This document shows positions 6,939-29,291 of a DNA stretch of 64,000 nucleotides, in pieces. A program made the translations under genes and the position numbers. Where the stretch lies: contig JAHBVX010000015.1 of the NCBI GenBank assembly GCA_019637295.1, positions 1-64,000 on the forward strand, in the 5' to 3' direction. Each line of letters starts with the position of its first letter. Position 1 is the stretch's first letter. This DNA is from Polyangiaceae bacterium. Its GTDB lineage: Bacteria > Myxococcota_A > Polyangia > Polyangiales > Polyangiaceae. The notes under the pieces are model-generated. The model searched no databases. It saw only the letters and a list, made by a program, of their open reading frames with translations, and was not told the DNA's origin.

Positions 6939-8152
6939 AGCGTCGCACCGTGTTCGTCGTGGGGACCATGGTGGTCGCGGCGGCGCTCGGGCTCTGGTTG
7001 CACGGCCGCGCCACGGCGGAGACGGCCCCCGTCGAGGCCGGTGAGGTTGGCGAGCGCATCGTGGCGCGCGCGGTGGTCGTGCCGGTGGACGGCATCGCCC
7101 GGATCCGGCCGCGCACCGACGGCCTGGTGGTCAAGGTGTTCGTCCGCGAGGGCCAGAGCGTGAAGGCCGGGGATCTCTTGGCGGAGATCGAGCCCGAGAT
7201 CGTCGAGAGCGAGGTGGCGCGCCGCGAAGCGGAGCTCGACAGCCTGCGGGGCAGCGCCGCCAGCGTGGCTCAGGGCGCTCGCCCCGAAGAGATCTCCGCC
7301 GCCGAGGCCGAGCTGCGCGCCACCCAGGAAGAGCTCGCGCTCGCGGAGACGCGCGCGGTCCGTGAGCAGAAGCTCGCGGACCGCAGGGTGAGCCCGGTGG
7401 CAGCAGCCGACGAGGCGCAGCGTGCGCTCGGGGTGGCGCGTGCTCGGGTCGAGGCGGCGGAGGCGCGCGTGCGCCTGGCCAAGGCCGGCGGCCGCCGGAG
7501 CGAGGTGAGCTCGGCGAACGCCCGCGTGCGCGCGGCCAAGGCGGCGGTCTCTCAGGCCAAGCAGGAGCTGGACAAGACGCGGGTCACCGCGCCCATCGAC
7601 GGCGTGGTGCTCGCGCGGCGGGTGGATCCGGGCGATGTGATCGCCGGTTCGGGCGCGGGCGTCGGCGCGCCGGCCTTCGAGATCGCGGACGCCACGCGCA
7701 TCGAGCTTCAGATGGAGGTCGAGGAGGTGGACTCGTCGCGCCTGGTGCCGGGCCTCGGCGTGAAGGTCTCGGCGCCGGGCAAGCCGGAGCGGCTCGGCAC
7801 TGGTACCGTGACGCGGGTCGGCGCGCAGCTCGAGCGGCGCAGCATCGGTGCGTTCGACGCGCGCGAACGCGGCGAGGGCTGGGTGCGAGTCGCCTGGGTG
7901 GACGTGCGCTGGGAGGCGGGACGGCTGATGCCCCTCGGGCAGCGGGTGGAGGTCGTCGCGGATCTGCCGCCACGCCAGGTCAGCGCGCGCGTGCCGCGCG
8001 CCGCGGTCCGCATCCGAGAGGGTCGCGCTACCGTCGAAGTGGTGACCAGCCTCGGCTTTCGCGAGACCCCCGTCGAGCTCGGCGCTGCAGACGACAGCCA
8101 CGTCGAGGTGCGCGGCTTGCCGGCGGGCGCTCGGGTTCGCACGCGGCGCTGA
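6935..8152 (+). CDS. HlyD/DevB-type periplasmic adaptor subunit
   Basis: The 405-residue adaptor starts with an uncleaved anchor helix (about residues 5-25). A lipoyl-like half-motif follows (DGLVVKVFVREGQSVKAGDLLAEIEP), then a long Ala/Glu/Arg-rich coiled coil (about 85-205). The second lipoyl half is TAPIDGVVLARRVDPGDVI, and beta-barrel and membrane-proximal domains complete the protein. This is the order expected of membrane-fusion proteins that bridge an inner-membrane ABC exporter to an outer-membrane channel. No TolC-like gene is nearby, so the channel is presumably encoded elsewhere. It starts on GTG with a four-base overlap with the ATPase gene. Confidence 0.9.
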   Translation: MKRRTVFVVGTMVVAAALGLWLHGRATAETAPVEAGEVGERIVARAVVVPVDGIARIRPRTDGLVVKVFVREGQSVKAGDLLAEIEPEIVESEVARREAELDSLRGSAASVAQGARPEEISAAEAELRATQEELALAETRAVREQKLADRRVSPVAAADEAQRALGVARARVEAAEARVRLAKAGGRRSEVSSANARVRAAKAAVSQAKQELDKTRVTAPIDGVVLARRVDPGDVIAGSGAGVGAPAFEIADATRIELQMEVEEVDSSRLVPGLGVKVSAPGKPERLGTGTVTRVGAQLERRSIGAFDARERGEGWVRVAWVDVRWEAGRLMPLGQRVEVVADLPPRQVSARVPRAAVRIREGRATVEVVTSLGFRETPVELGAADDSHVEVRGLPAGARVRTRR

Positions 8153-8287
8153 GCCGCAGCGTCGACGGGGCGATCCCGGCGAGGGCGAGCAGGTCCCTCG
8201 CGCACGCGCTCGCGAGACTTCGCTACGCGGACAAGAGCATCACCCTAAACAAGGCTCTCAACTCCCCCGACGTTCCGCTTACTCCGC

Positions 8288-27067: not shown

Positions 27068-27478
27068 ATGCATCTTCGCTTGGAAGCCGCAGCCGCAGGG
27101 CTGTCGTGTCTGCTCGTGGTGATGGGTTGCGGGGGAAGCTCGGGAGAGTACGAGCCGGGCGGTGGCGCCGCGGGCGAGGGCTCCGGTGCTGGCACCTCGA
27201 GCGGTGGCGCCGCGGGTGCTGGCGCGTCGAGCGGCGGCTCGGGCAGCGGCAACTCCGGCAGCGGCAACGCCGGCAGCGGGAGCGCGGGAAGCGGCAACTC
27301 CGGGAGCGGCGCTGGCGGAGCCGGGAGCGGTCCGGGCAACCCGGGTCTGTGCGCGCCGGGCATCGCCTGCGGCGGTCTCAACGTGTGCTTCGAGGACTGC
27401 TTCGGCCCGAGCTGTTGCCAGCTGAGCTGCTGGTGCGACACGGACGACGAGCTGACATGCAACATGGACTGCACGTGA
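27068..27478 (+). CDS. Small Gly/Ser-rich lipoprotein with Cys-rich tail
   Basis: The 136-residue protein has a lipoprotein signal (LSCLLVVMGCGG). A low-complexity spacer follows, made of repeats of G-S-G-x-S/N (residues 20-95). A 40-residue Cys-rich end (CAPGIACGG, CFEDCFGPSCC, CWCDTDDELTCNMDC) has about ten Cys that could form disulfides. The purine-rich AAGGGAGAGAGG just before the ATG at 27068 is a clear ribosome binding site and fixes the start. It is probably displayed at the cell surface. Role unknown. Confidence 0.75.
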   Translation: MHLRLEAAAAGLSCLLVVMGCGGSSGEYEPGGGAAGEGSGAGTSSGGAAGAGASSGGSGSGNSGSGNAGSGSAGSGNSGSGAGGAGSGPGNPGLCAPGIACGGLNVCFEDCFGPSCCQLSCWCDTDDELTCNMDCT

Positions 27479-27524
27479 CGAGCGGCTAGCGCCGGCGTTG
27501 GCTCGGCCTCACGCGAGTGATAGC

Positions 27525-27986
27525 GTGAGCGTCGTGGACGCTGCACGATGCTTGGGCCTTCTGTACTTGGGGCTCGGGGCGTTGCTCGCGGTTGGCTGCG
27601 CTGGGAGCCAGCGCGCGAGCACCGAGGGCGTGGACCCCGCTCCAGCGCCCGTGCCCGCGCCGTCAGAGCCCACAGCTGACCCATCGTCGCCGGTCGCCGC
27701 TGTGCCGGAGCGGGGCGGCGTTCCGCCGAAGTGGACGCGCTGCGACAGACACGAGCAGTGCGTGCTCGCCCCGCCCGAGACTCCCGAGTGTTGCGGTGGC
27801 TCCACGGCGGTGCACCAAGACTACCTGGACATGCTCATGACGACGCGCGGGCACGCGCCGGGGGCGCCCGCGGCGGCTCCGCCCGCAGCCCCGTGTACGT
27901 CGTCGTGCGCGCCCCAGCAGGCCTGGTGCCATCAGGGCCACTGCGTGGCCGGACGGGCCGGAGCGGATCCGTCCAAGTCACCCTGA
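27525..27986 (+). CDS. Hypothetical lipoprotein
   Basis: The protein of about 153 residues has a signal peptide ending in ALLAVGC (lipobox) and a Pro/Ala-rich linker. A short domain follows with six to seven Cys (WTRCDRHEQCVLAPPETPEC, TSSCAPQQAWCHQGHC). The start is uncertain: GTG 27525, GTG 27534 and TTG 27498 are all in frame; 27525 gives a normal signal length. It is of the myxobacterial small secreted Cys-rich type; no family recognised. Confidence 0.65.
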   Translation: MSVVDAARCLGLLYLGLGALLAVGCAGSQRASTEGVDPAPAPVPAPSEPTADPSSPVAAVPERGGVPPKWTRCDRHEQCVLAPPETPECCGGSTAVHQDYLDMLMTTRGHAPGAPAAAPPAAPCTSSCAPQQAWCHQGHCVAGRAGADPSKSP

Positions 27987-28062: not shown

Positions 28063-28434
28063 CTACGCGCACGCCTTCGCACGCCGGAGCGAACGTAGAT
28101 TCACGACGTGGGCCGCGACGAGGGTCCCGGCCCCGGCCACCGAGAGCGCGACCTCGGCGAGCTCGAGATCGTGCACGAGCCGAGCGCTGGCCAACAGCAG
28201 CAACCCGCCTGCGCCGATCCAGAGTGGAGGCGCCGCTCGGTGCTCGCGGTATCCCGCGCCCAGCGCGATCACGGCGATCAGCACCGCCACGCCGACGAAC
28301 AGCAGTTCGAAGCGTTCGTCCGCGAGGAAACCGCCGGCGACCGCGGCAGTCGAGAGCACGGCCCCCAGCGCGCAGTGGGCCGCGCACAGGCTCGACACCA
28401 CGATTCCGAGCCGATCTACCCTGCCGACGATCAC
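28063..28434 (-). CDS. MerC-domain membrane protein
   Basis: The 123-residue, four-helix membrane protein starts DRLGIVVSSLCAAHCALGAV. The Cys-x-x-x-Cys pair in the first helix is the metal-binding site of MerC-type mercury transporters. The remaining helices (LLFVGVAVLIAVIALGAGY, LWIGAGGLLLLASARL, VALSVAGAGTLVAAHVV) fit the family's length. It is divergent from the metallothionein/ECF sigma pair with 102 bases between, so the three genes probably share a metal-responsive control region. The actual metal is not certain; many MerC-domain proteins occur outside mer operons. Confidence 0.8.
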   Translation of the reverse strand: MIVGRVDRLGIVVSSLCAAHCALGAVLSTAAVAGGFLADERFELLFVGVAVLIAVIALGAGYREHRAAPPLWIGAGGLLLLASARLVHDLELAEVALSVAGAGTLVAAHVVNLRSLRRAKACA

Positions 28435-28536
28435 GCCGGGACCCTAGCCCGAGTGAGCCGCTCGGGCACCCCGAAAGATTCGTGTAATGATCCGACTACC
28501 CGCGCCGTCCACCAAGACGAAAGGACGAATCCTCAC
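28435..28536. promoter_or_regulatory. Divergent control region of the metal cluster
   Basis: These 102 bases separate the start codons of the MerC gene and the metallothionein-like gene. They hold the AT-richest patch nearby (AAAGATTCGTGTAATGATCC) about 40-60 bases before the metallothionein start, and a ribosome binding site AAAGGACG. The sigma factor of the cluster probably acts here, but I could not define its -35 and -10 boxes. Confidence 0.45.
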
Positions 28537-28707
28537 ATGACCGACAACGCTCAGTGCCAATGCGCCAACTGCCCGTCACCGTCTTGCTCCTGCTCGGGCG
28601 GGCCCCCGAAGGACGGAGGCTGCTGCTGCGGGGCGGTCTGCACTTGCGGTCCGGAGTGCCAGTGCCCCCCGGAGTGCGGATGCCCCGGCGCGAAGCCGAG
28701 GTCTTGA
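28537..28707 (+). CDS. Metallothionein-like Cys-rich protein
   Basis: The 56-residue protein has 14 Cys, mostly as C-x-C, C-C-C and C-x-x-x-C (CQCANC, CSCSGG, CCCGAVCTCG, CQCPPECGCPG). This is the composition of metal-chelating metallothioneins, although it is not a textbook SmtA. Its 3' end overlaps the start of the ECF sigma gene by 28 bases, which argues for joint translation of metal buffer and regulator. A good AAAGGACG precedes the ATG at 28537. Expected to bind Cu, Zn or Cd in the cytoplasm. Confidence 0.75.
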   Translation: MTDNAQCQCANCPSPSCSCSGGPPKDGGCCCGAVCTCGPECQCPPECGCPGAKPRS

Positions 28708-29291
28708 GTCAGCGAGTGGCCCGAGACGACGCCTTACCGGCAGAGCAGCGCTCGTTCGTGGTGGCGGCGCTGCAAGCTCACCGCGCCGAGCTCCGCGCCT
28801 TCGCGCGGAGGCGGGTCCCTGCGGCCGACGTCGATGACGTGCTGCAGATCGCCAGCCTCCGCGCGATGGCTAGCGCCGGGAGCCTGCGGAGTCCTGCGAG
28901 CGCGCGGGCCTGGCTGCTGCAGATCCTGCGCAACGTGGCGATCGATCTCGGACGTTCCGCAGCGGCCAGGCCCGTTCAGCAGGTGACCGAGCTGCCCGAG
29001 CTGGCAGCCGCGAGTCAGCCCGAGAGCTGTCGATGCAGCCTGGCACAGGTGAGTCGACTCCAGCCCGAGCACGCGGCCGTGTTGACGCTCGTGGATCTAC
29101 ACGGCGTGTCGCTCGCGGACGCCGCCGTTCGCCTGGGAGTCACGCGCAACAGCGCGACCGTGCGCCTGCATCGCGCTCGCAAGGCGTTGCGCGAGCGGCT
29201 GCGCAAGCACTGTGGCGTCACGAGCTCCCGCGCCTGCCTCGACTGCCGCTGCACGGTCGTTGGGTGCTGCGAGGCGAGCGAGACGGCCTAG
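28680..29291 (+). CDS. ECF sigma factor with Cys-rich C-terminal tail (CorE-like)
   Basis: The 203-residue protein has sigma2 (VAALQAHRAELRAFARRRVP, DDVLQIASLRAM, ARAWLLQILRNVAIDLGRS) and sigma4 (LQPEHAAVLTLVDLHGVSLA, RNSATVRLHRARKALRERL). The C-terminal extension of about 25 residues carries six Cys (HCGVTSSRACLDCRCTVVG followed by CC). Myxococcus CorE-type sigma factors (ECF44) sense copper or cadmium directly through such a Cys-rich tail and need no anti-sigma factor. None is encoded here, consistent with that model. ATG 28680 lies inside the end of the metallothionein gene. The metal specificity is not predictable by eye. Confidence 0.82.
   Translation: MPRREAEVLSQRVARDDALPAEQRSFVVAALQAHRAELRAFARRRVPAADVDDVLQIASLRAMASAGSLRSPASARAWLLQILRNVAIDLGRSAAARPVQQVTELPELAAASQPESCRCSLAQVSRLQPEHAAVLTLVDLHGVSLADAAVRLGVTRNSATVRLHRARKALRERLRKHCGVTSSRACLDCRCTVVGCCEASETA

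Follow-up and report, generated by a model that had tools for sequence, protein, structure and literature searches.

In the 64-kb window (the whole stretch of DNA analysed here), a metallothionein-like (MT) gene and the gene of a CorE-like ECF sigma factor probably constitute an autoregulated, metal-sensing homeostat operon. This reading is drawn from the sequence and its comparison with other genomes. The pair lies behind a promoter-like site and next to a divergent gene for a MerC-family membrane protein. The MT–sigma pair and its site are conserved beyond the window, relatives of the MerC gene lie near such sigma genes in several loci, and the sigma factor falls into a group that contains neither CorE nor CorE2.

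Organization of the locus

Table 1. Features of the MerC–MT–sigma locus, in window positions
Feature	Position	Strand	Basis
MerC-family membrane protein gene, 123 aa, GTG start	28063-28434	-	PF03203 match and translation
Divergent merC/MT gap, exactly 102 bases	28435-28536		Sequence
Inverted repeat GCCCGAGTGAGCCGCTCGGGC in the merC/MT gap	28447-28467		9-bp hairpin fold
Promoter-like site TGTAAT-N17-CGTC, starting 54 bases 5′ of the MT ATG	28483-28509	+	
Metallothionein-like (MT) gene, 56 aa, ATG to TGA	28537-28707	+	
TTGA, presumed sigma start overlapping the MT stop	28704-28707	+	Sequence
CorE-like ECF sigma gene, 195 aa from TTG 28704	28704-29291	+	PF04542, PF08281
Sigma linker CXC motif, Cys109-Arg-Cys111	29028-29036	+	
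Sigma Cys-rich tail, Cys170-x7-Cys178-x2-Cys181-x-Cys183-x4-Cys188-Cys189	29211-29288	+	

An earlier note on this DNA had described a Cys-rich MT-like gene overlapping an ECF sigma gene with six cysteines in its tail. Both genes and the six cysteines (170, 178, 181, 183, 188 and 189) are present, and so is the TTGA overlap, given the presumed start codon. The TTG at 28704 was chosen as the start because it overlaps the MT stop; a later start, for example the GTG at 28716, would remove the overlap. The sigma protein contains regions 2 and 4, with scores of 41.4 bits for PF04542 (cut-off 24, 1.2e-10) and 40 bits for PF08281 (cut-off 25.7, 3.1e-10). Its AlphaFold model has a mean pLDDT of 81.9 and a pTM of 0.51. 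In the linker and the tail the pLDDT is only about 46-58, and for this reason no geometry of the Cys sites was derived. A search of viral contigs with the sigma protein found no relative.

The divergent MerC gene and the 102-base gap were likewise described correctly, but the shared control region that the gap was said to hold was not recovered, as the sigma-type site faces the MT–sigma pair only. On the merC-facing side the best sigma-type site has three mismatches, so that control of merC by the window sigma factor is at most a possibility. RNA folding of the gap was not significant (z -1.87, with 9 of 200 shuffles folding equally well).

Relation of the sigma factor to CorE and CorE2

CorE (former group ECF44) responds to copper and CorE2 to Cd and Zn; both are proteins of Myxococcus xanthus. 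CorE-like ECF sigma factors (former ECF44) are characterised, among other things, by the lack of an anti-sigma factor and a need for metal in DNA binding. As the CorE reference we used locus L300 of Myxococcus xanthus AM003, obtained from the scan of named genomes, with cysteines at positions 120, 122, 181, 184, 189, 192, 194 and 206, numbered from the Met of MSDMN. The six tail cysteines of this protein match those mutated in CorE in the accessible text of PMC3107203. The sole other strong CorE-like match in the M. xanthus AM003 genome is L314, with tail cysteines 169, 173, 174, 178, 181 and 183; it was taken as CorE2 because its tail fits the CorE2 motif quoted in the available part of PMC9023288. 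According to excerpts of PMC8999054, the linker CXC and the Cys tail are both required for the activity of CorE-type sigma factors, and CorE itself is now unclassified in the current ECF classification. Within their group, according to the available portion of PMC8103513, experiments have been done on CorE and CorE2 alone.

The assignment of the window protein as a CorE-like sigma factor is supported by its sequence: over 176 aligned residues it is 39% identical to CorE of M. xanthus, and it has a linker CXC and a Cys tail. The protein has counterparts of the CorE residues Cys181, 189, 192 and 194, but carries a Thr at the Cys184 position, has no counterpart of Cys206 and possesses an extra CC near its end. 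Three of the four tail cysteines given as invariant among 21 proteins in the text seen of PMC3107203 (CorE 181, 184, 192 and 194) are found in it. CorE2 also lacks a cysteine in the Cys184 register, and it shares with the window protein the linker CXC and the CxxCxC end of the tail, but its Cys173-Cys174 pair is absent from the window protein. As described in the accessible parts of the respective papers, the C184A variant of CorE leads to expression without copper, with a plateau in place of the peak (PMC3107203), and the specificity of CorE2 is set by the Cys173-Cys174 pair, Cys174 in particular (PMC9023288). Since Cys184 and Cys173/174 are absent, neither the metal of CorE nor that of CorE2 can be assigned to the window sigma factor. 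The gene neighbourhoods also differ: an MT gene adjoins the window sigma gene, whereas genes for a multicopper oxidase and an HMA-domain protein adjoin corE (PMC3107203, as far as available), and the ORF beside L314 was read by eye as a CDF-type transporter rather than an MT.

Two further systems bear comparison, within the available text of the papers cited. OrbS of Burkholderia cenocepacia, an on-board iron sensor, is likewise an ECF sigma factor controlled by its own Cys tail, but it is inhibited by iron and has another Cys spacing (PMC9023288). The RicR–MymT system of Mycobacterium tuberculosis also has a metal-responsive regulator that controls a metallothionein and itself; RicR is, however, a CsoR-type regulator with a five-operon regulon (PMC10141476) and not a sigma factor with a gene overlapping that of the metallothionein.

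The metallothionein-like protein

Searches of Pfam and NCBIfam with the window MT protein gave no match up to E 10. No Pfam match was obtained for seven of its relatives, nor a PDB match for the MT profile up to E 0.1. With 56 aa it fits the pattern of small size and dense CxC/CC motifs, and it passes the 14% Cys limit used in the survey below. The alignment of 21 MT proteins shows nine invariant cysteines, arranged roughly as CxC..C..CxC, a spacer, and CCCGxxCxCGPxCxCPPxCxC. Within 59 relatives, the MT profile has eight matches in seven genomes. Five of these lie beside CorE-like sigma genes; the three that do not were counted against the homeostat reading. Solitary matches are L324, which has a near-consensus TGTAAA-N17-CGTC, and L328.

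A weak match to the MT profile was also seen in L329 (G050:C25, about 15722), in a short protein that begins like a signal peptide and ends in a Cys-rich stretch. The ORF directly after it was read as a different ECF sigma gene.

Several MT units have metal-related genes nearby. In L120 (G019:C213) the MT–sigma unit is directly preceded by genes for a copper storage protein of the Csp3 type (PDB 5fig, 8e-12) and a MerR regulator; genes for an outer-membrane efflux protein and for a CusB-like subunit lie further on. A Cad-family transporter is found near the MT unit of L147, and RND pump proteins near those of L150 and L171.

Distribution of the MT–sigma pair in Myxococcota

CorE-like sigma genes were sought with a linker-to-tail profile (A2). 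At E up to 1e-10 they were detected in 83 of the 183 genomes surveyed in the order; a draw from the whole phylum, which partly coincides with the order, gave them in 60 of 377 genomes at E up to 1e-12. For comparison 139 loci were used: 100 of the 108 places of the order, the five weakest and three others being omitted, and all 39 listed outside the order. An ORF was regarded as MT-like when it had 25-100 aa, at least 14% Cys and at least four CxC/CC motifs, and as an upstream MT when it ended within about 830 bases 5′ of the sigma gene. By this rule an upstream MT-like ORF is present in 24 of the 100 loci of the order, or in 27 with the relaxed cases L120, L150 and L167, which miss the rule, and in 14 of the 39 loci outside it under the fixed rule. 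The total, relaxed cases included, is 41 MT–sigma units in 39 genomes, and the pair recurs across other genera, families and classes. Elsewhere around the sigma genes of the order, an MT-like ORF occurs downstream in one locus and on the opposite strand in three of the 100, and all four resemble real MT genes.

The background of the rule is low. In the 64-kb window the MT gene is the only ORF on either strand that passes, and 27 other loci gave one match besides the window's own gene. Among 80 named loci, sought with a Cys184-type profile, there are two upstream, four opposite-strand and two downstream matches; of the two upstream ones, L259 is identical with L196, and L305 does not resemble an MT. 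Opposite-strand MT-like genes were seen upstream of Cys184-type sigma genes in L097, L130, L132, L240, L245 and L257.

The coupling of the MT to the sigma factor through a tight gene junction, as the earlier note had suggested, is supported by the sequences: the junction is TTGA in the window, and an NTGA overlap occurs in 6 of the 27 MT units of the order, the other 21 being without an exact one. Among the matches listed in searches of the open-access literature, including the ECF238 papers, no description of an MT–sigma operon was found, which does not by itself prove its absence.

A separate group of sigma factors

A quick maximum-likelihood tree without bootstrap was calculated for 141 rows (the 139 loci, CorE and CorE2) with the tails excluded. 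The window sigma factor falls into a group of 47 rows (SH-aLRT 96), with CorE and CorE2 outside. In this group 35 of the 47 members have an MT directly upstream, compared with 6 of the 92 other loci. A quick tree of the order only gave a similar split into 32 and 68 rows (SH-aLRT 96); both trees contain many weak inner branches. The Cys184 position is missing in 44 of the 47 group rows versus 2 of the 92 others, both of which have odd or absent tails. The tail spacing of the window protein, which is that of neither CorE nor CorE2 and in this respect failed the comparison with the characterised proteins, is thus kept within its own group. An extra Cys four residues after the CxC is found in 18 of the 47 rows, the window protein among them.

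The association of Cys184 loss with the MT was strong in the Fisher test, both in the order (14/26 vs 6/68) and outside it (11/13 vs 1/23), with six and three irregular-tail rows omitted, respectively. The tie is essentially that of one clade and reflects mainly one old event rather than repeated ones. Because the trees show one clade and the informative independent pairs are too few, repeated co-evolution is not claimed. By the rule, twelve of the 47 members lack an MT next to the sigma gene, which was counted against the homeostat reading; five of these twelve, together with one MT unit, form a subgroup whose proteins end in GCC or RCC. Also counted against it was a genome of the same genus (G001) that has only a Cys184-type sigma factor, with two MT genes. 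The MT-paired sigma factors look like a third, undescribed branch of CorE-type sensors.

The tandem MT-like genes of G001 (L008 917-1205, also L117) precede the CorE-like sigma gene, each behind its own TGTAAT-N16-CGTC.

Promoter-like sites

The sequence supports a promoter-like site belonging to the window MT–sigma pair itself. Its sequence, TGTAAT-N17-CGTC, has no other match in the 64-kb window, while 13 of 100 shuffles have one. In the 7.65-Mb genome the exact TGTAAT form has three matches, against none in the reversed control, and the MT site is the only plausible one. The L037 match of this form was rejected by eye, as it is followed by a hairpin-like GC repeat; the one in L039 was rejected in the same way, being read as lying inside a coding stretch.

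Upstream of the 27 MT units of the order, TGTAA[TCG]-N16/17 followed by CGTC is found in 18 cases, and in 23 when [CT]GTC is allowed. The MT units of L190 and L191 have a CGTAAG form; no promoter-like site was found upstream of those of L189 and L193. Outside the order, 9 of 14 MT units are preceded by such a site. The density of TGTAA[TG]-N16/17-CGTC is about 9-fold higher upstream of the sigma genes (26 in 65 kb) than in the rest of these loci (48 in 1.09 Mb of strand). Within the order, the spacing is 16 in all 11 sites of the other group, whereas the window's group has 12 sites with a spacing of 17 and 7 with one of 16. The window's genome contains a second MT–sigma unit at G000:C1:247419-248239 (L034, about 7420-8240), with a Cys184-type sigma factor, its own MT and a TGTAAG-N16-CGTC site. 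A similar site, TGTAAG-N16-CGTC, starts about 75 bases before the HMA-domain gene that adjoins corE in L300. By its domain and place this gene is taken to be MXAN_3427, the expression of which is CorE-dependent and the CorE site of which is described, in the available text of PMC3107203, through AAC in the -35 region.

For the exact TGTAAT form no plausible site besides that of the MT was found in the window's genome. The whole-genome counts of the related forms are below those of the reversed controls (TGTAAC, 4 vs 7; TGTAAG, 5 vs 11), and these nine matches include the site of the second MT unit and one divergent pair. This TGTAA[GC]-N16-CGTC pair, at G000:C2:178175-178293 (L336 8176-8294), lies between genes for a P1B ATPase and a lipoprotein-like protein without a family. 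The ATPase is of the copper type, with 587 bits for TIGR01511 (copper, cut-off 397) compared with 395 for TIGR01512 (Cd, cut-off 313.5). We regard the two sites as a lead and as possible targets of a CorE-like sigma factor.

Linkage of MerC to the sigma genes

The window MerC protein scores 81.9 bits for PF03203, above the Pfam gathering score of 27.6, and only 18.2 of 170 and 15.4 of 140 bits for the NCBIfam equivalogs of the organomercurial transporter MerC. The association of MerC with the sigma factor, as suggested earlier, recurs: of the 139 loci, 8 have a MerC relative within 3 kb of the sigma gene, and every one of these belongs to the window sigma factor's group. The gene is divergent in the window and in L184 (50% identity), and downstream of the sigma gene in L178, L180, L181 and L225; in L222 and L224 it precedes the sigma gene in the same orientation, the L224 match being weak (best E 4e-5). 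The genes of the window, L184 and L178 were confirmed as MerC by Pfam. In L178 the sigma and merC genes can also share TTGA. That three different arrangements occur speaks for a functional connection between MerC and the sigma factor. L224 has a MerC but no MT by the rule, which was counted against the homeostat reading. Of the 59 relatives, 17 carry a MerC gene, mostly distant from such sigma genes.

Proposed mechanism and alternative readings

We propose that no anti-sigma factor is involved and that the linker CXC and Cys tail of the CorE-like sigma factor would themselves detect a thiophilic metal. The metal-bound protein would recognise TGTAAT-N17-CGTC and transcribe the MT-like gene together with its own gene, the translation of the two being probably coupled through the TTGA overlap. 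Uptake of the metal by the MT would then end the signal, placing negative feedback around positive autoregulation. Membrane transport of this metal would probably fall to the MerC-family protein of the divergent gene. What we infer from the arrangement of the genes and motifs is that metal is bound, that it activates the sigma factor, that the sigma factor regulates its own gene, that the MT provides feedback and that MerC acts in transport. Besides the points already counted against this reading, the missing specificity cysteines of CorE and CorE2, the single-clade nature of the tie between MT and Cys184 loss, the merC side without a sigma-type site, the 21 MT units without an exact NTGA overlap and the low model confidence in linker and tail also weigh against it.

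The locus might instead hold an ordinary functional equivalent of CorE or CorE2, responding to copper or to Cd and Zn, that stands beside an MT and whose tail differences are immaterial. The identity of 39% to CorE, the four CorE tail cysteines and the linker CXC that are kept, the similar promoter site near corE and the copper-storage gene of the Csp3 type adjoining the MT unit of L120 would fit such a protein. We nevertheless consider it unlikely, as both Cys184 and the Cys173/174 pair of CorE2 are missing, the group of the window sigma factor includes neither CorE nor CorE2, and the linkage to an MT is recurrent.

The role of the MT could also be the reverse of the one proposed, namely that of a metal donor (metallochaperone) needed for activation of the sigma factor and not its antagonist. 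The common operon, the tight junctions and the similar gene order across the units agree with this. An adjacent MT is absent, however, in 12 of the 47 group members and in 86 of the 92 other loci, so sigma factors of this kind need no MT beside them, and we hold the donor role to be somewhat less probable still than equivalence to CorE or CorE2. The least probable reading, to which we give very little credence, is that thiol oxidation or electrophiles, and not a metal, are what the Cys tail and the Cys-rich protein respond to. It has in its favour that the candidate ligands are all cysteines; against it, the characterised relatives CorE and CorE2 both respond to metals according to the parts available of PMC8999054, PMC3107203 and PMC9023288, and metal genes lie near several MT units.

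The metal-sensing homeostat, which we prefer, may be extended to a more tentative view, which we think somewhat less likely to be right than wrong. Functionally, the group would form a third class of CorE-type sigma factors, in which Cys184, the off-switch of CorE, was lost and the MT of the same operon ends the signal, giving a one-promoter homeostat with its own metal preference. Where two such sigma factors share a cell, as here, the 16- and 17-base spacings may separate the circuits; this insulation is speculation. As far as the available text of PMC3107203 and PMC9023288 goes, metal choice and shut-off in CorE and CorE2 hinge on single cysteines, and the group of the window sigma factor is without both determinants and tied to an unnamed metallothionein family. 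It thereby offers many natural variants for studying how the spacing of the cysteines specifies the metal and the end of the signal. If the mechanism is true, the locus would be a very small natural one-promoter feedback circuit, useful for biosensors.

Just upstream of merC, the ORF list of the window contains two small ORFs (27069-27478 and 27498-27986) with lipoprotein-like starts and Cys-containing ends, one of which has a Gly/Ser/Ala-rich repeat.
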